A DNA stretch of 59,876 nt from an uncultured Eubacterium sp. Lineage in GTDB: Bacteria > Bacillota > Clostridia > Lachnospirales > Lachnospiraceae. Each line of letters begins with the position of its first letter. Positions within the stretch are counted from its first letter, which is position 1. The notes under the pieces were generated by a model, which did not search any database, was not told the origin of the DNA, and worked only from the letters and a program-made list of their open reading frames with translations. The stretch spans positions 1 to 59,876 of the forward strand of contig URYE01000007.1 of assembly GCA_900551945.1 (NCBI GenBank), read 5' to 3'. A program made the position numbers and the translations under genes. This document shows positions 7,052 to 42,072 of the stretch, piece by piece.

Positions 7052-7246
7052 ATGTGGAATTATGAAAAAAGGCTTGAATATCCTATAAACATAAAAAATC
7101 CTAATCCCACCCTAGCGGCTATGATTATAAGTCAATATGGTGGACCTGATGGAGAGAGTGGTGCAGCAATGCGTTATCTTTCACAAAGATATTCAATGCC
7201 ATATAGGCAAGTGGCTTCATTACTTACAGATATTGGGACAGAAGAA
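7052..7246 (+). pseudogene. cotJC: cotJC 5' segment (codons 1-65), interrupted by prophage
   Basis: Spore-coat protein of the manganese-catalase family. MWNYEKRLEYPINIKNPNP, QYGGPDGESGAAMRYLSQRY and LLTDIGTEE match the CotJC N-terminus, including the metal ligands E35 and E65. Reading continues into phage DNA (LNPRLYR) and stops at 7270. The remaining codons resume in frame at 41658. RBS GGAGG precedes the ATG at 7052. This is a gene split by site-specific integration, not decay: precise joining restores 202 codons. Confidence 0.95.
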
Positions 7247-7270
7247 TTAAACCCACGTTTATATCGGTAA
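7235..7270 (+). other. attL (cotJC / prophage junction)
   Basis: Bacterial half GGGACAGAA, core GA (7244-7245), then the phage arm AAACCCACGTTTATATCGG at 7249-7270. That arm is the exact reverse complement of 41631-41652 in attR. Shared GAA around the core is the only homology between attL and attR in the same orientation, as expected for a serine integrase with a 2-bp crossover. Confidence 0.9.
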
Positions 7271-7295
7271 TATTATCCTCCATATAATGGAAAAA

Positions 7296-7478
7296 CTATA
7301 TAAACAAAGGAACACCATTTTCTTTATAATAAACATCTTCGTGGTCTACATACTTATATGTTGTAGCTTTATCGTTTTCAGTAACTTCCAATAAGCCTTT
7401 TGTTTCTATCCCCTTTTCTTTTAAGTGCTTGTCATCAACCTGTGTTAATTTTCCATTTTTATAATAATTAAACTTCAT
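7296..7478 (-). CDS. Small phage protein (60 aa)
   Basis: MKFNYYKNGKLTQVDDKHLK onward; acidic, soluble, ending VYYKENGVPLFI. The start at 7478 follows GGAGATATAAAA, better than the upstream in-frame ATG at 7529. Last gene of the late operon next to attL. No family recognised. Being adjacent to the attachment site, a recombination-directionality role cannot be excluded, but nothing in the sequence shows it. Confidence 0.6.
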   Translation of the reverse strand: MKFNYYKNGKLTQVDDKHLKEKGIETKGLLEVTENDKATTYKYVDHEDVYYKENGVPLFI

Positions 7479-7559
7479 TTTTATATCTCCTTTTTTTATA
7501 TACGATATTAATATACTTATATTATACAATACTTAAATAAAAAGTTAAGCTTTTTTGTA

Positions 7560-8525
7560 TTATTTATTTTGTAAATTTCTATATTCTTCAGACTCTAATA
7601 TATCCGCCATTATATCTCTAAGTCTTGGATATGTCATTTTTGCCTGTATTACTTCCTCGTTTTCAGGATTGCGACCTAAGTATATATTATAGGCTTTTAT
7701 TATAAAGTTTCTCTTGTACTCATCTGAAGCCTGCAAGGCTCTGTCAACATCTGATAAATCATCACTCTCGCTTTTATCAATTATTGTGTTAGAGTATGCC
7801 TCTAATGCTTCTTTATCTGCCGGTCTTCCTAAATATTCTATAAAACACGTTTGAACATATAATTTTGCTTGTGCTTCTGTCATTTTTCCACTCCTATTTT
7901 CTTTATCATCATAAAACATAGATACATCAATGTGTTCTGGCGCACCCACAATTTTACTATTAGTAGATGTATATTGCCACCCATATATATTCCACCCATC
8001 AAGCGTATATTGCTCCTGTATATTAGGATTATCTGGATACATCGCAATCCATAATGGATACTTTGTTAATCTATTATCAAAGTAATTCTCAACAAAGTTC
8101 TGATTTGAATAAAGCATTGTATTGTATCCATACTTTTGCATTGTGTCACAAAAGGCTACGGCTATATTGCTAATAAGTTCTCTTGTTGGAGTTATTCCGT
8201 TGTCTTTCATATATCGCACTGTATCTCCTTCTATATCATACACTACCGGATAGTCAATATCTTTTTCTTTTAATATCTCGTAAAATGTTTTTGCTTCCTG
8301 TATGGCTTCGTTTTCATTTCTGGCATAACAAAACCAATATGCACCAACTTTATGTCCTGCCTGTTTTGCTTTAGAAATAAAATAGTCAAAGTTAGTGTCT
8401 TTTTGTGCGATTGTATTTCCATATCCTGCCCTTGCTATTACACCATGAACGTCACTATTTTTAATCATATCAAAGTCAATAGAGTCTACTTTTTGATACG
8501 ATGAAACATCAATTACCTTATACAT
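7560..8525 (-). CDS. Phage endolysin: GH25 muramidase with DUF4214-like C-terminus (321 aa)
   Basis: Residues 1-205 are a GH25 lysozyme: KVIDVSSYQ with the first catalytic Asp, VHGVIARAGYG, and PVVYDIEGD with the second acidic pair. It cuts the MurNAc-GlcNAc bond of peptidoglycan. The C-terminal about 100 residues carry two LGR-type repeats (FIEYLGRPADKEALEAY and AYNIYLGRNPENEEVI) like DUF4214, probably for wall binding. No signal peptide, so release depends on the adjacent holin at 8536. Confidence 0.9.
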   Translation of the reverse strand: MYKVIDVSSYQKVDSIDFDMIKNSDVHGVIARAGYGNTIAQKDTNFDYFISKAKQAGHKVGAYWFCYARNENEAIQEAKTFYEILKEKDIDYPVVYDIEGDTVRYMKDNGITPTRELISNIAVAFCDTMQKYGYNTMLYSNQNFVENYFDNRLTKYPLWIAMYPDNPNIQEQYTLDGWNIYGWQYTSTNSKIVGAPEHIDVSMFYDDKENRSGKMTEAQAKLYVQTCFIEYLGRPADKEALEAYSNTIIDKSESDDLSDVDRALQASDEYKRNFIIKAYNIYLGRNPENEEVIQAKMTYPRLRDIMADILESEEYRNLQNK

Positions 8526-8535
8526 ATATACACCT

Positions 8536-8964
8536 CTATTTTTTTATTTCTTCTGTTTCTGTTTTCTTTTGTAATATATCCACAGCTTTAGTTATTACCG
8601 CTGGGAGTGGTACTCCCATAAGCCCTGCATTTTCTACTAAACTTATAGTTTCATTCGCAACAAAGGCTATAATCAGGCAGTCCCTTATATAGCTTGTTCC
8701 AATTGTTATGTCTAATCTATAAGCCACCAACACAAAAGCTAACATTATCCCTTTTCTGCACAAGCCTTTCCAGCCTGTACTACTTTCCAACGCTCCAGTT
8801 GTTGTTTTAGGACTATTTTTAAACACACCAGCCACAATAAGACCAGTTATATAGTCTAAAAACATAAATATTAATAAAGTAGTTAATCCTGTATCCCAAC
8901 CACCAAATAAACTTGCAACTACCGAACCTATTACTCCTGTTGTTGTACATATCATTTCTTTCAT
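8536..8964 (-). CDS. Phage holin, phi-29/TcdE-like holin_4 family (142 aa)
   Basis: Inner-membrane pore former for host lysis. Several hydrophobic segments: TGVIGSVVASLFGG, LLIFMFLDYITGLIVAGVF, IMLAFVLVAYRLD, and the family block CLIIAFVANETISLVENAGL with MGVPLP. Short polar C-terminus (KKTETEEIKK). It is immediately upstream of the endolysin in the late operon, the classic lysis cassette. Confidence 0.88.
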   Translation of the reverse strand: MKEMICTTTGVIGSVVASLFGGWDTGLTTLLIFMFLDYITGLIVAGVFKNSPKTTTGALESSTGWKGLCRKGIMLAFVLVAYRLDITIGTSYIRDCLIIAFVANETISLVENAGLMGVPLPAVITKAVDILQKKTETEEIKK

Positions 8965-9011
8965 TCTTTTTCCTTCTTTCTTTCTTTTTATTTTTTATGT
9001 ATAAAAAAGGC

Positions 9012-12000
9012 TTATGCCCCATATACATTAGCTATTTGTATCCCATTTAAGAAAAAAATTAAATTTTTATTAGCCTGGTCGTAGGCCAGTTTTATGGATT
9101 GCCCCGGTGCTGTTAAAGCAACGGCACATTGTCCGTAACGACTTGTAGTTACATAAAATTCTCCATTGGCATTAGTTACGCCATTAAAATTAGCGCTTCC
9201 GTTAAAATATGCACTTCCGTTAGAATAAACGTTTCCTTCGTGACCAACACAAAACGCATATCTATCGGTATTTTTAATTAATGCTCCAGCGTGTAAAGCC
9301 CAACCGCCTGTAGAGTTAATGCCTACTGTTCCACTGGTGGCGTTTATGCCAGTAGATGTTATATTAAACCCGCCGATTTTTCCCGTTGTACAAGTTAAGT
9401 TGCCTTCTTTTGTCATGCTTGTACCTGTGCTGGTCCAAGACAGGCGGTTAGCTGTTAATTTTATTTCGTCCGCAGAAGCATTAAGCATACTAACAATTTT
9501 GTTATTATCTGTTTTATCTATTTTTAACTCCAAGCTGGCTTTAGTTGCCATGTCCTCTTGTGCCGGAGTCCAGTCGGTTGCTTTTGTTCCCTTTTCCAAC
9601 TTAAATTTAATGTTAGTAGTGTCTATTATTGCTGCATCACTCTCTAATGCAACTACCGCATTAAAATATTTTGCATTAGTTGGTGTTGTAAATGTTTTCG
9701 GAAATGTCTTATACCAGTCGGGACTGCTTATATATTTATAATTTGAATCATAAAAAAATAAAATTATTTTCCCAGTTCCATATTTAGATAATATATATTT
9801 AGCTCCCCCCTGAATTGCCCTTGCACTCTTTGTTCTCAACCTTGTAGTCGAATCTGTTCTCGTACCGGCGGATATAGTTCCACGCTCCCAGTAAGACATA
9901 TCCATTGGAATGTAGTTTCTGCCGCCTATCTGCATGTCATTAAAATCTGCTTTAGTGGTATATGTAGCAGCAACCGACTGCGTAATGCTGCCTGCTTTCT
10001 GATCAATTGCCGAGTTCATGGATTGGGTTGTCGCATACTTATTTAATGTGCTTTTTGTTGCGTATGTATTACTTACAGTCGTCTTATAGCCGTTAAGGTC
10101 TGCCTGTAGGTTTGTAACTGTGTCCTTAATTTTCGTGACTGTACTGCCGTCCGCTTTCTGACTTATACTGGTCGTATTGCTGTTTACAGTTGCCGTAAGT
10201 TTTGATAATGTCTGATTAAGGCTTGTATAATTAGTACTTAATGTCTTAGTGCTGCTTTCAAGTGATGATATTGAACTGTCCACATCTTCCGGTGCGGGTG
10301 TCCAGTCGGTGGCTTTGTTTCCTTTTTCAAGCTTTGGAAAAGCTATATATACTGATACTCTCGTATCTTTCCAGCTTGTACCTCCGCCAAAATAAAAACG
10401 GTTATTAGTATCTGCATCTTTTACATTTAATGTATAAGTATAATATTTCCATGAGGTTGTTAATGCTGCCGTTCCGAATGGTTTATTCCCACCCTCATGT
10501 ACTTTTAAATTAAATGCTTTGTCTGCTTTAGCCCAGAAAGAGACAGTATAATATCCATTTTCTTTTAATACGTTGTAGATTACCCTGTAACTGTCCGTTG
10601 CAGATGTTCCTTTTAATTTTACCGCTTTTTTGCCGCCGAGAGGGTCGGCTTCTCCGGTTGTTATGGTCGTAGTTCCCTGCCAGCCTGCTCCCGTTAGTAT
10701 TGTAGAACCAGGTAACAGATTTCTCCCGCCAATCTCCAGCCCTGTTACTGCTGTTGTTATATCCTGCTGCCATATCTTAGAGCTTATATTGCCCTGAATG
10801 GCTGTTAATTGTGTACCTTGAGCTGTTACCTTTTCTGTTACTGTCTTAAGATTAGTTTCTAAAGTATTGGCTTTACTTAACGCAGTACTTACATTTGTCG
10901 TAAGATTTTTAAAACTTACATCTAACGTCTGCTTATCTGTATCAACATAGATTTTAGAGGCGTTTAATGTACTGCTTCCATCTGAATTGATGGTGGTTAT
11001 CAGAGAGGCTATATCTATCTTCTTACCGCTTATGTTGGCGGTGTCGCTTATCATGTCATTACGGATTACTGCTTTCTTAATTCCGTCCGCCTGCACACCA
11101 TACAGAGGGTCAAACATCAGCTTACCGCTCTTATCCCATATGTAGATGTTATAATCACCGGCGGCATCCCTGCCAATCTGAACCCTTGCAGTCTTATTAT
11201 TATCCCTTATCTGTATTGTGTTATCCGATATGTCCAGATTACCGCTCTTACTTACTATATCCACGAGATTTGTATACAGCTTACCTGACATTATCTTGTC
11301 AGCACTTATATCCTTAATCATGGCTGATTTAATCTGTGCATCTCCGATAAGCCCTACCACCGTGTTAGAAAACTCTGTTGTAAGACTTTTACCTGTGGCA
11401 GTTCCGAACATCAGTGTATTAATGTCTGCAACGCTGGATTTAAGGCTTAATATGTCGGCACTGCCGGCTGTCAGAGCGTTAGCTTTCAGTGTATTTATTT
11501 CTGCCGTTGCCGCTTTAAGGTCCGCTATTTTAGCATATTTAATATCTGCTGTCGCTGCTGTAAGTGCTGTTGTTTCAAGACTGCCTATTCTTGCATTGGC
11601 AGCGTTTAATGTCTCTGTTACATTAAGGATCCTTGCATTTACTTTATCAAAACTTGCACTATTAGCAATAACTTCATCCAACTGTAAAATCTTACTGGCT
11701 GGAATACTGTCTATTGCATCACCGTCTATTGTTCCATTATCGGTGGTAATATTATCCACTGTATCCGATGTATCATCATACTTCTGTGTAAGCTCCTCAA
11801 AGCTTAACTTAGTATTAGATATTTCACATGTGTTATTTTCAGGACTGTCAGGATATTCTACAAGTCTGACAATACGCTGCTTAATCCTTAAGCCTGTATA
11901 ATCATCTATTACAGTCACAACATCCCCAAGATGATACTCTAATAAGTTATATTCCTTACTTACCTTTGCAAGGTCTGTTACATCCACAGTATAAGATACT

Positions 12001-12749
12001 CTGGGCGTTGCCATGTCTTCCAGTTTGGCGGCCGCATCCTCTTTTAAATTATCAGCAACAGTGTAACGCTCATCTTTCCAATAATATGTTTTCTTTTTGC
12101 TGCTGTATGTGTAATTTTCCAGATACTTCTTACCACCATTTACAGCCTCTATGGTTAATCCATCTTTACCAATGGGAATTATCCTGGTGTAAAAGTCTGT
12201 TGTCTGTGCCTGCTTGCCAACAGACTTTAGATTTAACTGTGAACTAAAGTATACGCCCCTGTCTTCTCCACGTTTTTCTACAAATGTAATATTCTTATTA
12301 AGACTGTCTATAATCATCTCAACCCTGTATGTCTTTACAATCTGCTTAATAATGCCCCATGTATACACATTTGTTTTCTTAATGGTTCTCTTTTTAGATA
12401 AAACACACGTACTGGTCCATCCTGTTCCTGCAAGTGCAAGGTCTGCCGCCTGCTTTGCGGTCTGCTCTGTAGTGTAAAACGTCTCCCAGTGTGTACCCTC
12501 CAGCTCATCAATGTTTAATTGTGCTGTTATATCGTAACAGCTGCCATTAATGCTTATCTGTTTAATTACATACTCATCAGACTGTGTCTGTATGTAATTT
12601 TCCAGCATCATATCTTTAGGCATTGCTTTTATTGGTATAGAAAAAGAGAGGGTCCTGTCATCGAAATCCAGAACTCTCTCTATTTTTAAATCTTTATATG
12701 TGGTTACAGGCGGCATTACCTGCCGCTGTTGATTTAATAGTCTTAGCAT
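9012..12749 (-). CDS. Tail tip / prophage tail endopeptidase-like minor structural protein (1245 aa)
   Basis: N-terminal about 330 residues resemble the phage minor structural (Tal/Prophage_tail) domain: VTTYKDLKIERVLDFDDRTL, SYTVDVTDLAKVSKEYN, HLGDVVTVIDDYTGLRIKQR. Next comes a long Ala/Ser/Thr-rich coiled region, then two carbohydrate-binding-like modules, each opening IGGRN and closing KGxKATDWTPAxED (about 680-820 and 985-1085). A C-terminal Gly-rich beta region follows. It likely forms the tail-tip adhesin that binds the host surface. Two CRISPR spacers match relatives of this gene (9751-9785 and 11227-11261). Confidence 0.85.
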   Translation of the reverse strand: MLRLLNQQRQVMPPVTTYKDLKIERVLDFDDRTLSFSIPIKAMPKDMMLENYIQTQSDEYVIKQISINGSCYDITAQLNIDELEGTHWETFYTTEQTAKQAADLALAGTGWTSTCVLSKKRTIKKTNVYTWGIIKQIVKTYRVEMIIDSLNKNITFVEKRGEDRGVYFSSQLNLKSVGKQAQTTDFYTRIIPIGKDGLTIEAVNGGKKYLENYTYSSKKKTYYWKDERYTVADNLKEDAAAKLEDMATPRVSYTVDVTDLAKVSKEYNLLEYHLGDVVTVIDDYTGLRIKQRIVRLVEYPDSPENNTCEISNTKLSFEELTQKYDDTSDTVDNITTDNGTIDGDAIDSIPASKILQLDEVIANSASFDKVNARILNVTETLNAANARIGSLETTALTAATADIKYAKIADLKAATAEINTLKANALTAGSADILSLKSSVADINTLMFGTATGKSLTTEFSNTVVGLIGDAQIKSAMIKDISADKIMSGKLYTNLVDIVSKSGNLDISDNTIQIRDNNKTARVQIGRDAAGDYNIYIWDKSGKLMFDPLYGVQADGIKKAVIRNDMISDTANISGKKIDIASLITTINSDGSSTLNASKIYVDTDKQTLDVSFKNLTTNVSTALSKANTLETNLKTVTEKVTAQGTQLTAIQGNISSKIWQQDITTAVTGLEIGGRNLLPGSTILTGAGWQGTTTITTGEADPLGGKKAVKLKGTSATDSYRVIYNVLKENGYYTVSFWAKADKAFNLKVHEGGNKPFGTAALTTSWKYYTYTLNVKDADTNNRFYFGGGTSWKDTRVSVYIAFPKLEKGNKATDWTPAPEDVDSSISSLESSTKTLSTNYTSLNQTLSKLTATVNSNTTSISQKADGSTVTKIKDTVTNLQADLNGYKTTVSNTYATKSTLNKYATTQSMNSAIDQKAGSITQSVAATYTTKADFNDMQIGGRNYIPMDMSYWERGTISAGTRTDSTTRLRTKSARAIQGGAKYILSKYGTGKIILFFYDSNYKYISSPDWYKTFPKTFTTPTNAKYFNAVVALESDAAIIDTTNIKFKLEKGTKATDWTPAQEDMATKASLELKIDKTDNNKIVSMLNASADEIKLTANRLSWTSTGTSMTKEGNLTCTTGKIGGFNITSTGINATSGTVGINSTGGWALHAGALIKNTDRYAFCVGHEGNVYSNGSAYFNGSANFNGVTNANGEFYVTTSRYGQCAVALTAPGQSIKLAYDQANKNLIFFLNGIQIANVYGA

Positions 12750-12778
12750 TATACCGCCTTTCTATTGCAATATTATAT

Positions 12779-13189
12779 TTATTCTTCCAGCATAAATAGC
12801 AGTGCATTAACATCATCTACTGTAAGACTGTCGTACTGGTCAAACTCACATTTCTCTATTATATCCATCTTCACAGCACTTATATTAATCTCTGTGTCTG
12901 TGTTTAAAAGCTCCTTATATTTATCCCCAAATTCACTCTCTGCTTTTTTATCTGCAAATACAACTGTTCCTTTCTCTTCATTAATCACAATATTATTATC
13001 CTTGTCACGTTTAGCTGTTTCATCAATATATTTTAACCTCTGCTCCTCCAGTACCTGTAATTCATCCGCTAATACTTTCCTGTTTCTTGCTATTGCAAAT
13101 TGCAATGATGTCGGCAGATGTTTATCCCCCAATCGTTTCAGCTCTCTATCATATTCCTGTACTTCTCTTAACTTCAATTTAGTTATCAT
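12779..13189 (-). CDS. DUF1617-like phage tail protein (136 aa)
   Basis: Charged, helical protein: REVQEYDRELKRLGDKHLPT, SLQFAIARNRKVLADELQVL. LP-x-SLQFAIARN resembles the DUF1617 pattern of small proteins encoded near phage tail tips. Role unknown, possibly assembly. In the late operon between the tail-tip gene and the 87-aa gene. Confidence 0.6.
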   Translation of the reverse strand: MITKLKLREVQEYDRELKRLGDKHLPTSLQFAIARNRKVLADELQVLEEQRLKYIDETAKRDKDNNIVINEEKGTVVFADKKAESEFGDKYKELLNTDTEINISAVKMDIIEKCEFDQYDSLTVDDVNALLFMLEE

Positions 13190-13273
13190 AATTATTCCCT
13201 TCCGTTTCTGGTATTATTATTTTTTACCCTGTTATTTCCTGAATAAATCGCATTTTAAATTAACATTATATAA

Positions 13274-13537
13274 TCAGTCTTCCTTAAGACAAGCATCTAC
13301 ATAATCATTAAATTCTTTCATGTCTGCCCTGCACTCGTCCATATGTTCTATATACATAGTTGGATTAATAATACTCTGCTGCACAAATGGCAGATTTCTT
13401 ATAACTCCGTTTTCTTTTTCAATGTTTGCACTGAATGTTATGACCGTGCTGTTATTGCCTGATGTATCCGCAATAACTGATGAACCATTAAGCTGTTTAA
13501 TAACTACTGTACTCGTTGTTGTATTCTTTTCTAACAT
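13274..13537 (-). CDS. Hypothetical tail-region protein (87 aa)
   Basis: Begins MLEKNTTTSTVVIKQLNGSS with Thr/Ser-rich beta-like sequence, then an acidic end (ECRADMKEFNDYVDACLKED). Good RBS (GGAGTGATTA) before the ATG. Lies just downstream of the distal-tail gene. No family recognised. Confidence 0.65.
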   Translation of the reverse strand: MLEKNTTTSTVVIKQLNGSSVIADTSGNNSTVITFSANIEKENGVIRNLPFVQQSIINPTMYIEHMDECRADMKEFNDYVDACLKED

Positions 13538-13552
13538 AATTAATCACTCCTT

Positions 13553-14239
13553 CTATAAATATCTTGGTTTATATGTAAGTGTGCATGTACATGCACTGCT
13601 TAACCTGATTGTATTAGTTCCCGGTCTTATTACCGGGAACTCCCAGATGTCAGTTCTGCCAAATATATTATTACCATTTTCTTCAATGGTGCATTTTTCC
13701 CCATCTATAACTACAGGAGTATTTATGGCTATATTCTGCACTGTTATAGGCTTTTGTGTTAAGCCTGTTATTGTTAAGCTGTTAAGTCCTATGTTACTTG
13801 TAATTTTTAATATTGCTGGAGATATTGCTGTAGCTACGTTATTAATTGTAATAGTGTCACTAAATTGATATTGCTTTGCTTCAGCATATTCATAACCATA
13901 TAGTGTAGTACTCAGCACTTTAAATTTTTTACAACTTGTTTTTACTGTTGGTGTGTCTGCAATGCAACAATAATAATGTTCGTATCCATCAAATTTATAC
14001 GTTGCTTGTTTGCTCATTAATTTTATAATGTTGCTTACATTATTATTAATTGTATCTTTATCACTTCCCTTTACCGCAAACTCTAACACTATTTTTTTAA
14101 GTGTGGCATTTTTATTAAATACTATTGGTGTTATAAAATTACTTTCCCATAGGCTCTCTGTGTTAAAAGTAGATGGCTGTATATTTATGCTGCATTGCTT
14201 GCCATTATATTGTGTTATATCTATGTTATTTATCTTCAC
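13553..14239 (-). CDS. Distal tail (Dit)-like protein (228 aa)
   Basis: N-terminal about 115 residues look like the Dit/phage tail domain: MKINNIDITQYNGKQ, LEFAVKGSDKDTINNNVSNI, YYCCIADTPTVK. The C-terminal beta half ends in WEFPVIRPGTNTIRLSS-type sequence, as in Dit galectin-like domains. Starts 4 bp inside the tape-measure stop (ATGA), so translation is coupled. Position between tape measure and tail tip is canonical for Dit, the hub joining tube and tip. Confidence 0.8.
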   Translation of the reverse strand: MKINNIDITQYNGKQCSINIQPSTFNTESLWESNFITPIVFNKNATLKKIVLEFAVKGSDKDTINNNVSNIIKLMSKQATYKFDGYEHYYCCIADTPTVKTSCKKFKVLSTTLYGYEYAEAKQYQFSDTITINNVATAISPAILKITSNIGLNSLTITGLTQKPITVQNIAINTPVVIDGEKCTIEENGNNIFGRTDIWEFPVIRPGTNTIRLSSACTCTLTYKPRYL

Positions 14240-20263: not shown

Positions 20264-20265
20264 AA

Positions 20266-31603: not shown

Positions 31604-31618
31604 GTAACATACATACCA

Positions 31619-31667: not shown

Positions 31668-31730
31668 CATAATGAAAATACATATTATTCCAATAATATA
31701 TACCATTATCAGTAATGCTATTACTGGCAA

Positions 31731-31913: not shown

Positions 31914-32076
31914 TTTTCTCGCTCCTTTCTAATTTTTATTGTTTTTTAACTTGTGAAAAACAAATATTTATATCATTTTGAAATCTCATTACTCTTTATC
32001 TTGAAAATACTTTATCTTTTCTTTATAATATATCTATCAATATTACAATATTGAAATATAAGATGAGGAGTTTCAT

Positions 32077-33080: not shown

Positions 33081-33177
33081 TTGCAATTACACTTCCTTTC
33101 AACTAATAGGCTAAGATACTTCTTGCACTCTCATTTCCACTACAAAAGCCTCTATTATATTCAACATTTTTAACTTA

Positions 33178-33423: not shown

Positions 33424-33440
33424 TTTATACTCCTCCTTTC

Positions 33441-33538
33441 AGTTCAATTACTTGAACTAAATTTATACTAGCATCTTCATATTTTCTTGTCAACACTTTT
33501 AGTTAAAATATTTGAACTTTTGTTCCATGACTTGAATG
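33441..33538. promoter_or_regulatory. Genetic switch: three operators and divergent promoters
   Basis: O1 33441-33458 AGTTCAA-TTAC-TTGAACT (perfect palindrome), O2 33501-33518 AGTTAAA-ATAT-TTGAACT, O3 33521-33538 TGTTCCA-TGAC-TTGAATG. Lytic promoter (minus): TTGACA at 33488-33493, 17 bp, TAGTAT at 33465-33470, between O1 and O2. Lysogenic promoter (plus): TTGAAT at 33532-33537, 17 bp, TATTAT, with its -35 inside O3. The layout is lambda-like. Confidence 0.82.
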
Positions 33539-33587
33539 TTTTCTTTAATTATGATATTATAATTATATATTTTAGGAGGTGCTAAAT

Positions 33588-34217: not shown

Positions 34218-34258
34218 ACTGAAGCAATTCTAAACTACAAAACATAAAAGGAATGTAT

Positions 34259-34987: not shown

Positions 34988-35027
34988 AGTAAAATAATAT
35001 TACAAAATAAACAAGGAGGACCTAACA

Positions 35028-35417
35028 ATGGAGAATGAAATTTCTGGTTCAGTAATTAATATTATTGATGAGTTTCGCATTATAATTAATTTAGGTAAAA
35101 ATGTTGTTAAAAAATGGGATACTATATATATTTATGACAAGGATAATTCTATAAAAGACCTTGATGGTACTATACTTGGAACTTATGATATCTGTAAAGC
35201 AAAACTTAAAGTATCAGAAGTATATGATAAATTTTCCATTTGTAGTGATTTCTCAACTCCTATAGATGAGCAAAGACAAGCACTTAATAACATTAATATT
35301 TCATTATCACCACTTTTAAAATCTAGTAATAAAAATAAAAAACTTAATATCGACCCACAAGCAATTAATTCAATTGATAAAGCAATTCGCATTGGTGATA
35401 TTGTAAAACTTTTTTAA
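35028..35417 (+). CDS. Small beta-barrel-like protein (129 aa)
   Basis: First 75 residues have the beta pattern of FlgT-C/OB-like domains: SVINIIDEFRIIINLGKNVV, KKWDTIYIYDKDNSIKDLDG, LGTYDICKAKLKVSEVYDKF. RBS AAGGAGGACCTAACA. Between the repressors and the ncRNA-AbiF unit. Such domains occur beside phage repressors, but function is unknown. Confidence 0.55.
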   Translation: MENEISGSVINIIDEFRIIINLGKNVVKKWDTIYIYDKDNSIKDLDGTILGTYDICKAKLKVSEVYDKFSICSDFSTPIDEQRQALNNINISLSPLLKSSNKNKKLNIDPQAINSIDKAIRIGDIVKLF

Positions 35418-35428
35418 AAAATTTTTAC

Positions 35429-35538
35429 TTGACAACAGATATTATAAATGGTAAGATACTTTACAACAGAAATGGTCGTTGCTAAAATGACTAGCGAAAA
35501 TCCCTCTTACCATTTATTAATGGAAGGGGGATTTTTTC
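35429..35538 (+). ncRNA. AbiF-associated small RNA with its promoter and terminator
   Basis: Consensus promoter TTGACA (35429-35434), 17 bp, TAAGAT (35452-35457), so RNA starts near 35464. It holds a short hairpin TCGTTG/TAGCGA, then a strong terminator: AATCCCTCTTACCATT (35499-35514) pairing with 35519-35533, then TTTTTT. The downstream AbiF gene's GGAAGGGGG RBS is buried in the terminator stem, and its ATG is 9 bp after it. RNA length about 75 nt. Matches the known placement of abiF RNAs. Confidence 0.75.
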
Positions 35539-35541
35539 TTT

Positions 35542-36555
35542 ATGATTACTCAACAATATGATAAGCCATTTAAAACCTATGATGAAATGATAGAATTAAT
35601 GGAACAACGTAATATAATTGTAGAAGATAAGGAATTTGCTAAAACTGTTCTATCTAATCTATCTTATTATAGCTTAGTTAATGGATATAAAAATACATTT
35701 TTACGTGTTGAAGGAACTGATGACTTTATAGAAGGTACAAAATTTGAAGAACTATATACTATAAATCAGATAGATATTAGTTTGAATAACATTATTTTTA
35801 AATATATATTATATCTTGAACGCTCACTTAAAACTAAAGTGTCTTACGTAGTTTCTAAAGAGTATGGTGTTTATACTGACCCATTAGATTTAACTTGTTC
35901 AAATCCATCAGATTATTTATGTAGAAATTACTACAGCCGTTCTACAGGAAAAAGACAAAATATATTAAAAAACCTAAAACAATGTATAACTAATAATCAC
36001 CACAACAATATAATTGAGCATTATGTAAATAATAAAAATCATATTCCAGCTTGGATACTAACATATAACGTTCCTTTTGGACTAGCAATCGAATGGTACT
36101 CTATTTTAAAAAAAGATGATAAGACATATGTTTGTGATGAATTTATTCAATGTAATGATGTATCTTTAGAAGACCGAAAAGAATTTTTATATAAAGCTCT
36201 TCTTCTAGCAAAAGAATACAGAAATAAAATTGCTCATGGAAATAGAACATTTAACGTTAGTGGCTTACCAATACTTCCTAAAAAACAGTTACTTAAACTA
36301 TCAAATAATATAATTACATCAAAAGAATATAACAAAGGTTTATCACAATGTGATTTATCTTCAATAATGATACTGCTTATACTATTACTAAATGACTATT
36401 TCTTGAGCAGTAACTTATTAAGTGATTTTTCATTACTATTTTTACCATACGAAAACCAACTTTTTAATAATAAAAATATATATGAAATATTTAATTTACC
36501 ACAAGATATCTTATCTAGACTTCTTAATTTGATAAATTATAAATATAATCTTTAA
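35542..36555 (+). CDS. AbiF/AbiD-like (Abi_2) HEPN protein (337 aa)
   Basis: Opening QQYDKPFKTYDEMIELMEQR, then LSNLSYYSLVNGYKNTF, is the Abi_2 signature. KEYRNKIAHGNRTF near residue 230 supplies the HEPN R-x4-H ribonuclease motif. Abi_2 proteins cause abortive infection; the AbiF subgroup works with an upstream ncRNA and is related to the ancestor of Cas13. Here the ncRNA is present. Prophage-borne, so probably lysogen-protecting. Catalytic residues look intact. Confidence 0.85.
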   Translation: MITQQYDKPFKTYDEMIELMEQRNIIVEDKEFAKTVLSNLSYYSLVNGYKNTFLRVEGTDDFIEGTKFEELYTINQIDISLNNIIFKYILYLERSLKTKVSYVVSKEYGVYTDPLDLTCSNPSDYLCRNYYSRSTGKRQNILKNLKQCITNNHHNNIIEHYVNNKNHIPAWILTYNVPFGLAIEWYSILKKDDKTYVCDEFIQCNDVSLEDRKEFLYKALLLAKEYRNKIAHGNRTFNVSGLPILPKKQLLKLSNNIITSKEYNKGLSQCDLSSIMILLILLLNDYFLSSNLLSDFSLLFLPYENQLFNNKNIYEIFNLPQDILSRLLNLINYKYNL

Positions 36556-36639
36556 AATTTATAAAGTTAAAAAGAGAAGGTGAGCGCCATAGGTAAAATT
36601 CAAGAGAAACAATATACTACAAATAAAATATAATATTTT

Positions 36640-36783
36640 TATTGACTGTGAGGGGAATATATTATATGATTTTTAATCATGCCTATAGGGTATTACAATT
36701 TATTAAAGTATTTTGGCAACCCCCCACAGCAATGTGGGGGTTATACGTTTTTCACCCACTATTAATATAGTGGGTATTTTTTA
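36640..36783 (+). ncRNA. Possible small RNA with tandem terminators
   Basis: Intergenic 36556-36830. TTGACT near 36641 and TATATT/TATATG near 36658-36668 suggest a promoter. A terminator (AACCCCCCAC-AGCAAT-GTGGGGGTT, about 36718-36743) is followed directly by a second (ACCCACTAT-TAAT-ATAGTGGGT, about 36753-36775, then TTTTTT). A 34-codon hydrophobic reading frame overlaps the hairpins but lacks an RBS. Could be an RNA antitoxin-type or simply a double terminator. Confidence 0.4.
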
Positions 36784-36830
36784 TTATTGACTAATGAAAA
36801 TACATTAATATACGAAAGGAAGTTTTTATT

Positions 36831-37310
36831 ATGACAAAGAAAAAACTATTTTTTAGCAGTCTTATTATAGCAACCAGCTTGACTTTTATGGCTTGTGGAA
36901 ATACTAATACAGCTAGCCAGACGACTGAAACAAGCTCTACTACACAGCAAGTTACTTCCACTACTGCTGTTACAAAGACTACTTCTGCGACTAAGCAAAC
37001 TACTACTGCTCAAGCTACAACTAAGCAACCAACCACTACAAAAAGTACAGAAACTAAATCTAAGCAAACAACTACAACTGCTCAAAGCAAAACGTCTGCT
37101 ACTGAAAATGTCGCTGTACAGAGTGAAACAGAACCAGTCGCTACTGAACCTGATACAACAAAAAGTGCAGGTGGTAGTGTATGGATTGATGATACTGGAA
37201 AGAAATATCACAAGAAATCTACTTGTAGCAACATGGACGCACCTTACCAAGTTTCTGTTGATGAAGCTACAGCAAGAGGATATACACCTTGTAAAAAGTG
37301 TTACAGATAA
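36831..37310 (+). CDS. Thr-rich lipoprotein with Cys-rich C-terminal motif (159 aa)
   Basis: Signal peptide MTKKKLFFSSLIIATSLTFM with lipobox MACG, so membrane-anchored outside the cell. Residues about 24-115 are a T/S/K/Q-rich linker. The C-terminal YHKKSTCSNMDAPYQVSVDE then GYTPCKKC is a C...C-x2-C motif often found attached to secreted nucleases and surface proteins (Ada-like metal-binding fold suggested). A candidate lysogenic-conversion surface protein. Its plus strand is codon-repetitive, giving long spurious ORFs in other frames. Confidence 0.75.
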   Translation: MTKKKLFFSSLIIATSLTFMACGNTNTASQTTETSSTTQQVTSTTAVTKTTSATKQTTTAQATTKQPTTTKSTETKSKQTTTTAQSKTSATENVAVQSETEPVATEPDTTKSAGGSVWIDDTGKKYHKKSTCSNMDAPYQVSVDEATARGYTPCKKCYR

Positions 37311-37330
37311 TACAAACAAAGGAGATTTAA

Positions 37331-38236
37331 ATGAATATAAAGGAAAAAGATATTATTTTTTCTAACTATGACAAAATACTATTTATAGACGAGTCTGGCG
37401 ATACTGGATTTACATTTAATGATGACAAGAATACTAGTTCATCTGAATTATATGTAACTTCTTGTTTTATTACTACGCCTAACGATATTCCATATAATAT
37501 TGAATTATTAAATATGGCTAAACATGAATTAAATTTAGATAACAAAGAATTAAAGAGTACAACTTTAAAACGCCATCGTTTTGCTGATAAAGCCTATGAA
37601 CATTTTAAAGATTTAAAGGGATATGCCTTTTCTTTTGTTGCATTCAAGCAAAGCCTTTATAATAACAAAAACAAAATTTTAAAATCATTTGCAACAACAG
37701 ACGACAAATTTTTAAGTGGAACTTTACATGGTTTTCCTATTTCAGCATTAATAGAATTACAACTCATTAATCAATCGGATAAAATCCTTATAGTTTTTGA
37801 CCGTTTAACAAAAGATGAGCAAGCCTGCGTTGAAAAAGCTTTAAACTCTAAAAATTGGAATACTCATAATAATGCTACTGCTATTTATAGAGACTCTAAA
37901 TCGCAAAAATACCAATTAATACAAATAGCAGATATGATTGCTGGTACTGTAAGGACATATATAGAAAGCAATATGCAAAATAGTTTTATTAAAACAACCT
38001 GCAAAAGGTGTTATTATTTAAATAATTACTGCAATAAATATCCTACATTTAAAAAACAAATCGCAAAAATTAATATTGAAAATAAATACCGCTATATTTT
38101 CAAATTGCATTCTCAACCAAACAAACCTCAAATAACAGCTGTACATGTATATTCATTACCACCTGATTATATGGATTATTTTTCTTTCCTAACTTGTAAA
38201 ATAATCGGCTTTAATACACGCAAAAAAAGAAGTTGA
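37331..38236 (+). CDS. DUF3800 protein (301 aa)
   Basis: YDKILFIDESGDTGFTFNDD is the hallmark DUF3800 start (FIDESGD), an RNase H-like fold. LYVTSCFITTPNDIPYNI, DKILIVFDRLTKDEQACVEK and IQIADMIAGTVRTYIES (acidic QxADxxAG motif) follow. The acidic residues in place suggest an active nuclease or related enzyme. DUF3800 genes are frequent in prophage and defence-rich loci. RBS AAAGGAG. Located between the lipoprotein and the hairpin-bracketed cassette. Confidence 0.82.
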   Translation: MNIKEKDIIFSNYDKILFIDESGDTGFTFNDDKNTSSSELYVTSCFITTPNDIPYNIELLNMAKHELNLDNKELKSTTLKRHRFADKAYEHFKDLKGYAFSFVAFKQSLYNNKNKILKSFATTDDKFLSGTLHGFPISALIELQLINQSDKILIVFDRLTKDEQACVEKALNSKNWNTHNNATAIYRDSKSQKYQLIQIADMIAGTVRTYIESNMQNSFIKTTCKRCYYLNNYCNKYPTFKKQIAKINIENKYRYIFKLHSQPNKPQITAVHVYSLPPDYMDYFSFLTCKIIGFNTRKKRS

Positions 38237-38380
38237 ACCTTTCCTCCCAAGTGTGTACAAGACATTTTACACTCTGCCACGTATTCGCAACGTTCAACTT
38301 CTTTATTAGTATATTAATTTTGTAATTAAATATTACACAATTATTTTAACTTTGTCAATAATTTATAAAAAATAATAGTA

Positions 38381-38415
38381 AAAGGGTCTTAAAATTATAT
38401 TTCAAGACCCTTTTT
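38381..38415. terminator. Bidirectional terminator
   Basis: AAAGGGTCTT-loop-AAGACCCTTTTT; poly-T on one strand and poly-A before it give terminator function both ways. Serves the minus-strand 43-aa gene and possibly the DUF3800 gene. Confidence 0.8.
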
Positions 38416-38464
38416 GCATATAATAGGACTGGCTAACAAACACCCAGCCTATCAACTAACTAAT

Positions 38465-38596
38465 TTACTTTAAGATAATTAATTTTGCACCAACAATGCA
38501 GTTTAAATTGTAATATATTGTATTATTTTTTCTATAGTATATTGCATAAATGTTTAATTTACTAATTTCTAGTCCTATGTATTTTATATTCATCAT
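38465..38596 (-). CDS. Small protein (43 aa) with strong RBS
   Basis: MMNIKYIGLEISKLNIYAIY then YRKNNTIYYNLNCIVGAKLI and ILK. GGCGGGAG lies before two tandem ATGs (38596, 38593). Strongly beta/Ile-Tyr rich. Downstream are an inverted repeat (ATAGGCTGG type, with partner pieces at 38421-38452 and 38567-38632) and a terminator, so it is a complete compact transcription unit. Could be a type I toxin-like or regulatory peptide; no family recognised. Confidence 0.6.
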   Translation of the reverse strand: MMNIKYIGLEISKLNIYAIYYRKNNTIYYNLNCIVGAKLIILK

Positions 38597-38648
38597 ACTC
38601 CCGCCTTTCTTAATTAGATAGGCTGGATGTATGAAATATTATATAAAA

Positions 38649-38684
38649 ACAGCTCCCACGCTACCAACGTGAGAGCTGTCAAAA
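38649..38684 (-). repeat. Hairpin direct repeat, left copy (terminator)
   Basis: 36 bp identical to 39922-39957. Stem ACAGCTCcCACG / CGTGaGAGCTGT; on the minus strand it is followed by TTTTTATAT, so it terminates the nuclease gene at 38691. Confidence 0.9.
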
Positions 38685-38690
38685 TGGTCA

Positions 38691-39443
38691 TTAATTTATT
38701 CGTTTTTCAATAATTGTTTTTATTTCGTCTATACCATCATGTATATTTTCTTGTAAAAAATTATGATAGCTTGAAGCCATTTGAAGCTCTATTTTCTTAG
38801 CTTTAATTAAATCAAAGAATGTATATCCTTCTAACAGTAAGTGATAATCTTCCTTTGTAAACGTAATAATATATAATTCTCTACCATGTTCATATTTTTC
38901 TATTAACCTAAGAATTTTTGTTAATCCATTTGCATCTTTATACTCCTCTGGTTTACCACTTAACCCTTCTTGAGTAAATATTATACCAAATGTAATATCA
39001 GTTGCTACCAAAAAACTATAAAACTTACCAACATAGGTTACACCTAACCCTTTTTTATAATTTTTACACTCTCCTAAAAACATATCTAATTCTATAGGTA
39101 ATAACTCTTTACTCAATCCAAATGATGTAAATGCTTGTTTTCCTTGTTGAGATAAAACAATTACCTCATCAATTTCATTTGTTTCCGTATGCACATTCTT
39201 ATAAACATCATAAAAATATGATTTTTTTATAATAAATTCTACAACTCTTTCTAATTTATCCCCCTTATCTTTTGTTGTTTCTAATGTTTTGTCAAAAGGC
39301 GTCTCTAATTCATTTAGCAATGATTGAAACTCATTTTTTTCATTTTCACCCCATCTTATCAGATTATTAAACATATCAACTTCATTTTGTACAACATCTT
39401 GCATATATTGTTTTAGATTAAAATTTTCACTTAAATCATTCAT
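38691..39443 (-). CDS. PD-(D/E)xK nuclease-like protein (250 aa)
   Basis: Core at about residues 60-170: DKLERVVEFIIKKSYFYDVY (helix with E), NVHTETNEIDEVIVL (E and D of the site), LDMFLGECKNYKKGLGVTYV (E-x-K), YSFLVATDITFGIIFTQEGL. This ordered pattern is the restriction-endonuclease-like fold seen in Mrr-type and many defence nucleases. N-terminal about 60 residues are helical, C-terminus ends IEKRIN. Starts 4 bp inside the upstream zinc-ribbon gene (ATGA), so the two are a unit. Confidence 0.72.
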   Translation of the reverse strand: MNDLSENFNLKQYMQDVVQNEVDMFNNLIRWGENEKNEFQSLLNELETPFDKTLETTKDKGDKLERVVEFIIKKSYFYDVYKNVHTETNEIDEVIVLSQQGKQAFTSFGLSKELLPIELDMFLGECKNYKKGLGVTYVGKFYSFLVATDITFGIIFTQEGLSGKPEEYKDANGLTKILRLIEKYEHGRELYIITFTKEDYHLLLEGYTFFDLIKAKKIELQMASSYHNFLQENIHDGIDEIKTIIEKRIN

Positions 39444-39808
39444 AAATGAACCACCTTATATAAAACAATTACATTATCTTCTAGTGTTAATTTTTTTTGA
39501 CAAAAATCACAATACATATCTGGGTTAAATGATACTAATGAGTCTAAGAATATACCTTTACTTCTATTACAGTCGAAACAATAAACCTCATATAAATTCG
39601 ATAAAAAGCCTTGCTTTTTCAAACTTTCTAACATATGATATGCAACTTTTATATCTACTGCAATTCTAGATTTTAAGTTACCTGGATAAATAAAATCATT
39701 AACCCTTTGAACACTAAAAAACTCCCTACACTTCTTCTGTTGGTATTCGGACATCTGACATTTGGTTATTAAGCTCTCTACAGCATCGCATAAGGTACTC
39801 TCTAACAT
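39440..39808 (-). CDS. Zinc-ribbon partner protein (122 aa)
   Basis: N-terminal two thirds look like a winged-helix DNA-binding fold (QRVNDFIYPGNLKSRIAVDI, KVAYHMLESLKKQGFLSNLY). The C-terminal part has VYCFDCNRSKGIFLDS and MYCDFCQKKLTLEDN, two CxxC pairs forming a zinc ribbon. RBS GGAGATGATGAGCA. Coupled by ATGA to the nuclease. A recognition subunit plus a nuclease is typical of compact restriction-like defence. Specific function unproven. Confidence 0.7.
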   Translation of the reverse strand: MLESTLCDAVESLITKCQMSEYQQKKCREFFSVQRVNDFIYPGNLKSRIAVDIKVAYHMLESLKKQGFLSNLYEVYCFDCNRSKGIFLDSLVSFNPDMYCDFCQKKLTLEDNVIVLYKVVHL

Positions 39809-39921
39809 TGCTCATCATCTCCTTTTCTCCAACTAATTCATCATATTACAAATTAATTCTTTTTATTTCAATCATAGATTTTGATTTGACATTTAGACAA
39901 TTATATATCAAAATATATAAA

Positions 39922-39957
39922 ACAGCTCCCACGCTACCAACGTGAGAGCTGTCAAAA
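39922..39957 (-). repeat. Hairpin direct repeat, right copy
   Basis: Exact copy of 38649-38684. Minus-strand polarity again gives a T-rich tail (TTTTATATATTTT), yet no minus-strand gene lies to its right, so it is an orphan terminator, as if the two-gene cassette had been inserted with a duplicated terminator. Confidence 0.9.
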
Positions 39958-39978
39958 GGCTATACAAGCTATTGCTTA

Positions 39979-40034
39979 TACAATATGCCCCAACCAAGCA
40001 TATTGTACCATAAAGCACCTAGTTTGTATAGGTG
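39979..40034 (+). promoter_or_regulatory. Two hairpins in the recombinase leader
   Basis: First: TACAATATGC (39979-39988) and GCATATTGTA (39998-40007), a perfect 10-bp inverted repeat, a likely operator or RNA stem. Second: CACCTA-GTTTGTA-TAGGTG (40016-40034) followed by TTATTTTTA, terminator-like. Both are between the upstream hairpin repeat and the recombinase RBS, so attenuation of recombinase expression is plausible. Confidence 0.5.
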
Positions 40035-40082
40035 TTATTTTTATACTCTTTTACACATATTTTTAACAGGAAGGTGATTTTT

Positions 40083-41624
40083 ATGGAATTATATGCACAA
40101 TATTTAAGGAAATCTAGGGCTGATATGGAAGCCGAACAACATGGTGCAGGTGAAACCTTAGCACGCCACAAATATATGCTAGACCAACTAGCAAACAGTA
40201 TGGGAATTGTCATATCTAAAGTTTACAAAGAGATAGTTTCAGGCGAAACTATTTCGGATAGACCAGTTATGCAACAACTACTACAAGACGTAGAAGCAGG
40301 TATGTACAAAGGCGTACTAGTAGTTGAAGTTGAACGTCTTGCCAGAGGGGATACTATCGACCAGGGAATTGTATCACAGACCTTTAAATACTCTAACACA
40401 CAGATTATAACGCCAACTAAAGTTTATAACCCAAATGATGAATTTGACGAAGAATACTTTGAATTTGGGTTATTTATGAGCCGTAGGGAATATAAGACTA
40501 TTAACAGACGTATTCAAGCTGGACGTATAGCCTCTGTAAAAGAAGGCAAATATCCAAGCCACAAAGCCCCTTTTGGATATAGGGTTGTTAAGCTTCAAAA
40601 TGAAAAAGGATATACACTTGAAATCATCGAGCACGAAGCTGATGCAGTGCGTAAAATATTTGATATGTATGTAAATAAGCTTGAAGGGGCTACTACTATT
40701 GCACACACACTTAATGCTTTAGGATATAAACCAAGAATAAGTAATATATTTTCAACACAAGCTATTACAGCTATTTTAGACAATCCAGTATATGCTGGAT
40801 ATGTAACCTGGGAAAGACGTAAAGAAGTTAGAACTATGCAAAATGGTATAGTTAAAAAGAGTCGTCCAAGAAGCCATAATTATATAAAATGTAAAGGCAG
40901 ACACCAAGCTATAATTGATGAAAATTTATGGGAAAAAGCACATGAATTAAGAACTAATAAACGTATTGCTACACCTAGAAAAAGCAAGGAATTGACCAAT
41001 CCTTTATGCGGTCTTATATACTGTACTAAATGTGGACATAAAATGCAACGTCGTCCTGCTGGCAGTAGACAGCCTGCGGACGTTATCATGTGTCCTAACA
41101 ATGAATGTAACAACTATGCTTCTTATATGAGTTTAATTGAAAAAGACATTATAGAAGTGTTATGTGATTGGATTGATAAATATAGTATTTGTTCCAAACA
41201 GGATAATGAACTAACACTTAATATAAATACACTTAATAACAATATAACAGCTCTTAACAAGGAATTATCCACAACAAAAGAACAATTAAACAATGCTTAT
41301 AATTTCCTTGAACGTGGAATTTATACTCCAGAAGTATTTTTTGAGCGTTCTGCTGCCCTTAAAGATAAAATAAATACTATTGAACAAAATATTCACAATA
41401 TACAAAATGAAATTTTAAAAGAACAAAAACAACAACAAGCTAAACTTAACTTTTTACCGAAAGTAAAAACTATAGTTGATTGCTATTGGGAGTTAGATAA
41501 TGCAAAAGCTAAAAATGATATGCTAAAAGAGGTTATAGACCACATAGACTATATAAAAGAGGTTAAAGGTCGTGGTCACGAAGATGACTTTAAACTGACC
41601 ATTTATCCTATTATCTCAAAATAA
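40083..41624 (+). CDS. Large serine recombinase (513 aa), prophage integrase/excisionase
   Basis: Resolvase domain 1-150: MELYAQYLRKSRADMEAEQH with catalytic Ser in RKS, and VEVERLARGDTIDQGIVSQ. Recombinase domain about 170-275: KAPFGYRVVKLQNEKG, ITAILDNPVYAGYVTWERR. Zinc ribbon CGLIYCTKCGHKMQRR...CPNNEC about 315-355. Coiled coil about 385-460. Start at ATG 40083 after AGGAAGGTGA; the longer frame from 40032 lacks an RBS. Stop is 7 bp before the attR arm. Expected to make the GA-core exchange inside cotJC. Confidence 0.95.
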   Translation: MELYAQYLRKSRADMEAEQHGAGETLARHKYMLDQLANSMGIVISKVYKEIVSGETISDRPVMQQLLQDVEAGMYKGVLVVEVERLARGDTIDQGIVSQTFKYSNTQIITPTKVYNPNDEFDEEYFEFGLFMSRREYKTINRRIQAGRIASVKEGKYPSHKAPFGYRVVKLQNEKGYTLEIIEHEADAVRKIFDMYVNKLEGATTIAHTLNALGYKPRISNIFSTQAITAILDNPVYAGYVTWERRKEVRTMQNGIVKKSRPRSHNYIKCKGRHQAIIDENLWEKAHELRTNKRIATPRKSKELTNPLCGLIYCTKCGHKMQRRPAGSRQPADVIMCPNNECNNYASYMSLIEKDIIEVLCDWIDKYSICSKQDNELTLNINTLNNNITALNKELSTTKEQLNNAYNFLERGIYTPEVFFERSAALKDKINTIEQNIHNIQNEILKEQKQQQAKLNFLPKVKTIVDCYWELDNAKAKNDMLKEVIDHIDYIKEVKGRGHEDDFKLTIYPIISK

Positions 41625-41630
41625 GTTTGT

Positions 41631-41670
41631 TTACCGATATAAACGTGGGTTTGATGAACTTAATCACCTA
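41631..41670 (+). other. attR (prophage / cotJC junction)
   Basis: Phage arm TTACCGATATAAACGTGGG (41631-41652, 22 bp in all) then GAT, core GA (41656-41657), then bacterial ACTTAATCACCTAG. The arm is the exact reverse complement of 7249-7270 in attL. Confidence 0.9.
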
Positions 41671-42072
41671 GAAATGGTCAGTGTTATGGTACATCAGCTC
41701 ACAAGAAATCTCACAATGGAACAGATAAAGGGAACACCATTTGAAGCATATTATGTTGACCATACTGCCGGTGTATGGCCACAAGCGGCTGGTGGAATAC
41801 CATTTAACGCCTGTGAATTTCAGTCAAAAGGTGATGCTATAACAGATATTTTTGAAGATATGGCAGCAGAACAAAAAGCCCGTACAACTTACGATAATCT
41901 TATACGACTTGTCGATGACCCAGATGTTCTTGAACCATTAAAGTTCCTTCGTGCAAGAGAAATTGTACATTTTCAAAGGTTTGGTGAAGGTCTTTCAATT
42001 ATTCAAGACAATCTCAACTCAAAGAATTTCTATGCTTTCAACCCAGAATTCGATATGAAATCTACAAAATAA
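41658..42072 (+). pseudogene. cotJC: cotJC 3' segment (codons 66-202)
   Basis: In frame with the 5' segment across the GA core: GTEE + LNHLEMVSVMVHQLTRNL. Carries the metal ligand H68, GGIPFNACEFQSKGD, IFEDMAAEQKARTTYDNLIR (Glu ligand) and REIVHFQRFGE (His ligand), the standard CotJC/Mn-catalase C-terminus. No start codon of its own with an RBS; an internal ATG at 41674 would give a fragment lacking metal ligands. Expressed usefully only after prophage excision. Confidence 0.93.

Follow-up and report, generated by a model that had tools for sequence, protein, structure and literature searches.

A siphovirus-type prophage in the spore-coat gene cotJC and the repeated interruption of this gene in related bacteria

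The interrupted cotJC gene and its prophage

The window analysed here, the whole 59,876-nucleotide stretch of contig URYE01000007.1 (assembly GCA_900551945.1) from an uncultured Eubacterium sp. of the Lachnospiraceae, carries a prophage inserted inside the coding region of the spore-coat gene cotJC. The host operon, cotJABC, lies on the forward strand and comprises cotJA (6354..6506; Pfam PF11007, E 1.9e-18), cotJB (6506..7015; PF12652, E 5.5e-26) and a cotJC gene in two parts, codons 1-65 at 7052..7246 (PF05067, E 8.5e-19), with the junction placed against intact relatives, and codons 66-202 with the stop codon at 41659..42072 (PF05067, E 1.1e-23). A sigma-K-type promoter, identified by sequence match only, precedes the operon on the same strand at 6291..6323 (TTTAACAC-N16-CATATACTATT), and mother-cell expression of the operon is predicted from this match. 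In a Pfam search both cotJC halves matched the manganese (Mn) catalase family PF05067 at adjoining profile positions (7052-7267 to positions 1-67, 41653-42069 to positions 66-198); the cotJC match ends after codon 65 (7246) and restarts at 41659, 34.4 kb on, and both halves are open and retain wild-type motifs. Joining the flanks at their common GAA is predicted to give a CotJC of 202 codons followed by a stop, reading ...DIGTEELNHLEM... with the motif GTEELNHLEM, and the intact cotJC of related species has GTEELAHLEM at the corresponding motif. An earlier note on this DNA had proposed that the halves rejoin as one 202-codon frame and that related genomes should hold an intact gene with the predicted joined sequence, and both proposals were borne out. 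The cut falls between E65 and H68, also as previously noted. CotJC matches solved Mn catalases, a family relation, and the metal ligands of these enzymes, in CotJC numbering, are presumably E35, E65/H68, E136 and H169, the two residues beside the cut among them.

The left attachment site (attL, 7229..7270, forward strand) consists of a bacterial half site, the GAA core and a phage arm, and the right one (attR, 41631..41675, forward strand) of a phage arm, the core and the other bacterial half site. The core is present in both junctions, ACAGAA-GAA-TTAAACC on the left and TTTGAT-GAA-CTTAATC on the right; a shared core had been recognised before as GA, one base too short. A perfect 22-bp inverted repeat occupies the insert ends (7249-7270 and 41631-41652), where chance matches in 2000 shuffles reached at most 15, and the joined phage ends predict an attP with two 22-bp arms and an 8-base centre. 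The excision had been called frame-restoring, and the flanks do join in frame; since a precise site-specific insertion is always frame-restoring, this is automatic and by itself no evidence of sporulation timing.

The insert (7247..41658, 34.4 kb) has PHROG matches throughout as well as both junctions, and by these matches it is a temperate siphovirus prophage with all main modules, namely head, packaging, tail, lysis, repressor and integrase. On the reverse strand lie the genes for the endolysin (7560..8525, phrog_291), the holin (8536..8964, phrog_199), the tail tape measure protein (14236..17865, phrog_1533), the major tail protein (18621..19178, phrog_88), the major head protein (20614..21849, phrog_10), the head maturation protease (21855..22571, phrog_94), the portal protein (22540..23703, phrog_12) and the terminase large subunit TerL (23719..25407, phrog_9), the last with 66% to that of Terrisporobacter phage TPDSL_ph2. 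Replication proteins and repressor-type proteins were also matched by PHROG, among the latter a phage repressor-type helix-turn-helix protein on the forward strand (34253..34987, profile and PHROG matches). The large serine recombinase (LSR), the integrase/excisionase, is encoded at 40083..41624 on the forward strand; its open reading frame (ORF) is open from 40032, an ATG with a ribosome site stands at 40083, and the gene ends 34 nucleotides before the attR junction. Its Resolvase (PF00239) and Recombinase (PF07508) domains score above the cut-off and the zinc ribbon PF13408 just below it (24.7 against 25.3 bits).

No megablast match to window positions 7300-31000 was found in the phage collection. 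The unverified record MT835739.1, a 46-kb human faecal phage contig, encodes an LSR with 46.5% identity to that of the window, followed by GAACTGGCTCATTGATG, which starts like the cotJC core, and then by a lysis gene; this site is most likely the joined attP of a related phage. Dorea phage DO134P1, with an LSR 42% identical, was considered as a cotJC phage and rejected, the cotJC core being absent from the 161 nucleotides read at its LSR end. Within the prophage, positions 35542-36555 hold an Abi_2 gene (Abi-like, PF07751), possibly phage-defence cargo, and a hairpin-like, near-identical pair of sequences (CAGCTCCCACGCTACCAACGTGAGAGCTGTCAAAA; about 38645-38685 and 39920-39960) flanks two reverse-strand genes upstream of the LSR. 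Directly behind cotJC, at 42359-44887, a reverse-strand ORF of 842 amino acids (aa) has many similar repeats, by eye of a cell-wall-binding type.

Interruption of cotJC in related genomes

GTDB species genomes were scanned with the C-terminal half of CotJC, and among the best 80 of the 588 loci encoding a relative the halves were separated by 3-9 kb at several, and the 5' half was missing at others; the terminal insert sequences differ among those loci, though the gene is cut at nearly identical codons. A family sample of 397 genomes from one bacterial family (that of genome G002, for which the organism names point to Lachnospiraceae) was queried with intact CotJC and gave a match in 244, of which 161 with weak or multiple matches were re-searched (63 + 50 + 48), the other 83 having mostly single strong matches. 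The gene is split in 53 of these genomes, in 58 intervals whose pieces share a contig and a strand and follow each other in the correct order, a count that leaves aside an overlapping frameshift (G054) and a divergent copy (G281). By their piece ends the intervals fall on four sites, I with 16, II with 24, III with 9 and IV with 9. All the junctions that resolve (54 of 58; the others are G271, G217, G376 and G152) lie at nucleotides 93-99, 173-200, 404-407 or 513-524 of cotJC and, like the window, join into CotJC, with placement taken as the best-scoring join and thereby biased towards the wild type. All four sites adjoin metal-ligand motifs, as these are placed in Mn catalases. Two cuts on one contig were seen in five genomes of the sample and in G001 outside it, and three cuts are suggested in G189 by pieces on separate contigs; weaker evidence of splitting, likewise from pieces on different contigs, comes from 29 more genomes. 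The inserts range from 1.6 to 118 kb, and 18 of the 58 are under 5 kb. Split cotJC is found in cultured isolates too, among them Falcatimonas sp. MSJ-15, with a 39-kb insert and a clade-IIa recombinase, and Roseburia sp. 1XD42-69.

Split cotJC also occurs beyond the family sample. In a class-wide sample CotJC was present in 159 of 245 genomes, and a re-search of the 56 with partial matches or paralogue-only hits yielded 24 same-contig intervals at the same sites in 19 of them, among which members of the first family may be included. In IMG/VR, cotJC pieces occur on 38 viral contigs, and in 22 the alignment starts at codons 61-65. As a control, the ATPase domain of SpoIVA, the product of another mother-cell gene, was recovered as a single unbroken, stop-free match from every one of the 47 genomes examined, and in 40 of these cotJC is split on one contig. 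Two arrangements may be recorded beside these counts. Several genomes have a second, uninterrupted, near-full-length Mn-catalase paralogue, 31-37% identical, and at locus L031 (genome G010, contig C110, 6142-11128) a near full-length cotJC with one stop lies between the 5' and 3' halves of another cotJC, as would an element with a spare cotJC copy or a rearranged tandem.

The split genes are under selection much like that on intact ones. The ratio of nonsynonymous to synonymous substitution (dN/dS) against the nearest intact gene was 0.126 for split genes (28 genes) and 0.114 for intact genes (47; p = 0.12), calculated on ungapped fragments with the codons near the junctions trimmed and for comparisons with dS under 2, which left 28 split genes out of 40 and 47 intact ones out of 72; the outlier, G271, looks misaligned. 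For gene pairs that share an insertion, synonymous sites are saturated in most and dN/dS is uninformative. The flanking pieces are without an in-frame stop in 53 of the 58 intervals, a count to which G152 and G271 do not contribute as their junctions did not resolve, and the ligand residues are kept wherever testable in nearly every case (E35 in 26/26, E65 in 22/23, H68 in 23/24 and E136 in 31/32).

Recombinases, promoters and small reading frames

An LSR is present in all 58 family-sample intervals, matched to the interval list by hand and shortened (273-402 aa) in a few, and 62 of the 76 placed LSRs, loci outside the sample included, lie within 150 bp of one insert end and mostly point outward. 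A tree of 73 of the 78 LSRs found (three under 380 aa and two unplaced were left out, and a long-branch warning applies) separates groups I (18 rows), IIa (13, including the window), IIb (23), III (9) and IV (10), and the insertion site maps on it with three changes, the minimum, where shuffled labels gave a mean of 33. When 67 control LSRs, found at other places in 38 of the genomes, were added (one, L309, is located within a cotJC insert at a distance from the recombinase of that insert and has no promoter match), a FastTree analysis interspersed the cotJC groups among the controls, with nine changes between control and cotJC, at least seven of which supported branches make unavoidable; clades IIa, III and IV remained single groups, and I and IIb fell apart. 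This interspersion indicates that cotJC was adopted as a target on several occasions. At site III, two elements encode nearly identical recombinases while the cotJC genes of their hosts are synonymously saturated, which implies that this lineage moved recently. Apart from the LSR, the clade IIa loci retrieved have few genes in common with the window. At one of them, L142, the LSR is among the nearest to that of the window (about 46%) and the element measures only 2.5 kb, so that a mini-element too apparently harbours a clade-IIa recombinase, whether functional or a remnant. Two site IV mini-elements, L152 and L170 (2.1-2.5 kb), have, in addition to the LSR and a small ORF, toxin-antitoxin-like parts by eye (RelE/ParE-like and Phd-like), which could stabilise the element.

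A sigma-K-type motif, AC-N15-17-CATAnnnT, was found within 180 nucleotides upstream of 51 of 89 cotJA genes, with 4.3 expected from shuffles; such a promoter on cotJABC implies that cotJC is needed only late and in the mother cell. For sigma-E a motif was built from spoIVA promoters alone (upstream regions from 30 of the 47 genomes, 26 usable; 13 of 26 matched against 1.0 expected). At p <= 0.05, a sigma-E-like promoter precedes 25 of 74 cotJC LSR operons and 8 of 67 other LSRs (p = 0.0018), two duplicate LSRs having been left out of the 76 and related elements not being independent rows; a stricter cut-off gave 12 of 74 against 4 of 67 (p = 0.048). In all 76 regions the forward strand had 28 matches and the reverse strand 11 at the 5% threshold, and 17 against 2 at 1%. 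The matches are distributed unevenly, with 9/9 in clade III, 9/24 in IIb, 3/10 in IV, 3/19 in I and 1/12 in IIa; clades III, IV and IIb together, a grouping picked after the clade counts were known, give 21/43 (p = 2.5e-5 against the controls). A GxACAA box lies inside the promoter in 13 of 25 sigma-E matches and in 3 of 30 clear non-matches; we take this box to resemble a SpoIIID site. The frequent sigma-E-like promoters make early mother-cell excision likely in these three clades. Sigma-K control of the recombinases was considered and rejected, with 4 of 76 matching at a 5% false-positive rate and 7 of 76 in a second scan, equal to the reverse strand. Three near-identical control LSRs, L344, L353 and L354, also have a sigma-E-like motif; a spore gene behind them was looked for as the reason and rejected, the element adjoining tuf. 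An element beside tuf was likewise observed at L369-L371, 95-99% identical in the three genomes compared, where the LSR has a sigma-E-like promoter and a GTACAAG box.

Excision by an LSR would call for a recombination directionality factor (RDF), and small reading frames fitting this role accompany several of the recombinases. A conserved ORF of 45-75 aa, mostly just upstream of the recombinase, is found in 9 of 10 loci of clade IV and 8 of 9 of clade III, and clade IIb has two families of small ORFs, each present in nine rows (eight loci once duplicates are removed). An RDF such as CD1234 of Clostridioides difficile would be expected in such an arrangement, and these ORFs are RDF candidates. 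The best RDF candidate of the window phage is a 63-aa ORF on the reverse strand (30042..30233), with a motif that also occurs in small ORFs of L129, L142 and L203, loci with related LSRs, and in 0 of 1451 shuffled ORFs; as the window and L142 served to define the motif, only two of the four occurrences are independent.

Excision during sporulation and its alternatives

The reading that we favour, with more confidence than doubt, is that the window element is a sporulation-gene intervening prophage, integrated by its own LSR, reversible and left in the mother cell. A temperate siphovirus has integrated through this LSR into an attB within cotJC, at codons of a conserved metal-ligand motif; as the sequence shows, attB and attP, sharing the core GAA, became attL and attR and cotJC was split. 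The LSR together with a small RDF would reverse the reaction exactly, giving a circular phage whose attP has the 22-bp arms and an intact cotJC. The exact reversal is proposed because of the anatomy of the sites and the related phage contig with a joined attP, and the window prophage is very likely excisable. Since the mother cell dies, the phage may lose nothing by leaving there, the forespore presumably retaining the lysogen, as in the published logic of skin and SPbeta. Timing in the mother cell is supported for the relatives by their promoters, and for the window phage we infer it.

Elements of this kind are known. Intervening elements have been published for sigK, spsM, spoVFB (vfbin), spoVR (vrin), gerE (gin) and yabG (yin) (PMC5595907, PMC10747680, PMC4191935). 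In Bacillus subtilis, SPbeta is likewise a prophage in a spore-envelope gene, spsM, with an LSR-type recombinase and a frame-restoring excision, and there the SprA recombinase is reportedly vegetative while timing depends on the 58-aa SprB (PMC4191935), a situation like that of the window LSR with its non-significant promoter. The target gene of the window phage differs from that of SPbeta, its excision is predicted and its RDF a candidate; the phage was also considered as SPbeta (Spbetavirus) itself and rejected on an LSR only 28% identical and on the missing megablast match of 7300-31000 (SprB was not searched for). The skin element in sigK (SpoIVCA in B. subtilis, CD1231/CD1234 in C. difficile) is likewise an LSR element in a mother-cell gene with a small RDF, and the available text on C. 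difficile describes a sigma-E-like promoter before the small protein CD1234, as in the relatives of the window (PMC5025042). In contrast to sigK, cotJC encodes a coat enzyme and not a regulator, the window element has full phage modules, and the cotJC elements derive from several LSR lineages with up to two per gene on one contig. Vfbin, vrin, gin and yin resemble the window element in being LSR elements, prophage-like or otherwise, in sporulation genes; in the accessible parts of their descriptions none is in cotJC, and each is described singly rather than as part of a family-wide, repeated use of one target. The closest case concerns phi027 of C. difficile, an active phage whose attR adjoins cotG, a CotJC homologue, which appears downstream of attR as a 678-bp ORF, with no split of cotG described in the available text (PMC12122855, PMC11222575). 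No report of an intervening element in cotJC is apparent in the open-licence PMC literature, as far as its text could be consulted, and the window element appears to be a known kind of element in a new gene, with the repeated multi-site colonisation of cotJC as what is new.

It may instead be that cotJC is a conserved safe harbour, with a near-identical attB in every host, from which the elements exit on lytic induction only, CotJC being dispensable or replaced by paralogues; we regard this as possible, though we doubt it. Several observations weigh against excision at sporulation and most of them would suit such a harbour. Neither a sigma-E nor a sigma-K promoter reaches significance before the window LSR (sigma-E p about 0.2), clades I and IIa together (4/31; 1/12 in the window's own IIa) are the same as background, an insert-wide scan of the window gave 17 sigma-E matches against 12.4 in shuffles, the 63-aa ORF is only a candidate RDF, and the sigma-K-like box upstream of that ORF is what chance alone predicts (0.93 per insert). 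An intact second cotJC copy is kept in 17 of the 53 split genomes, so that the statement that no complete CotJC can be made in the vegetative state holds for the window copy only, and another copy may lie elsewhere in the same genome. Mutants of the CotJC family in C. difficile had no significant coat defect in the published account as far as available, and CotJC may thus be dispensable. The inserts of up to 118 kb and the near-identical LSRs in two hosts with saturated cotJC divergence look like ordinary mobility, and diverse LSRs are known to converge on one conserved coding site, as do 33 in one prolyl isomerase gene in the portion of the study seen (PMC10083194), although cotJC differs from it in having four sites, several LSR clades and a sporulation function. 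Against a harbour speak the 36 of 53 split genomes in whose assemblies, of uncertain completeness, no intact copy was found (setting aside a 33%-identical paralogue), the stop-free intervals with selection like that on intact genes, the inserts below 5 kb, which could not hold a phage and yet keep an LSR or LSR fragment, and the sigma-E-like promoters of three clades. The earlier proposal of sporulation excision is upheld in that an LSR prophage lies in a coat gene with a sigma-K-type promoter and that cotJC is split in many relatives, and weakened by the insignificant promoter of the window LSR.

That the split cotJC is a dead gene, knocked out by the insertion with both parts decaying, seems to us very improbable. 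This copy does encode no full CotJC in the vegetative state, and three of the 58 intervals of relatives have in-frame stops (one in G138, one in G182, four in G299); against this, the window halves are open with wild-type motifs and the relatives show stop-free intervals and dN/dS like that of intact genes. The selection data concern large distances (dS about 1.5) and so count against old pseudogenes and not against a recent insertion, which tempers the case for excision during sporulation as well. The promoter evidence has an alternative of its own, which we think unlikely, namely that the sigma-E-like promoters are read by element-encoded regulators or sigma factors and do not prove mother-cell control. 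The control LSRs L344, L353 and L354 share the motif and belong to an element that adjoins tuf, contains a relaxase-like ORF and has a sigma-like ORF upstream (labels by eye), and an identical promoter motif in such an element makes an element-encoded regulator conceivable; similar small regulator ORFs are present in several site III elements and in one site IV element. On the other hand, the motif was derived from spoIVA promoters alone, and it is also found in the small elements L170 and L138, among whose listed ORFs no such gene was seen.

On a broader proposal we are evenly divided: that no bacterial gene seen so far is as heavily 'DNA-introned' as cotJC, several LSR lineages in spore-forming gut Clostridia having independently come to use its four metal-ligand motifs, with the gene in two or three exons (four as suggested by separate-contig pieces), and phages, larger elements and mini-elements of 1.6-5 kb, which retain hardly more than a recombinase, removed in the dying mother cell, the rejoined gene being in many species the sole source of CotJC. 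Programmed excision at sporulation is known, as far as the available reports go, from a handful of genes, each reported singly. Should cotJC be repeatedly colonised in this manner in gut Clostridia, and at times split twice, the rule 'integrate into genes used only by the doomed cell' would become testable; the elements are also a source of dozens of site-specific recombinases, together with their predicted att sites and small RDF candidates, and many such coat genes are probably annotated as missing or broken by gene callers. Many gut lysogens may, if this is true, be tied to the spore cycle, and sporulation would be a routine exit programme for mobile elements.

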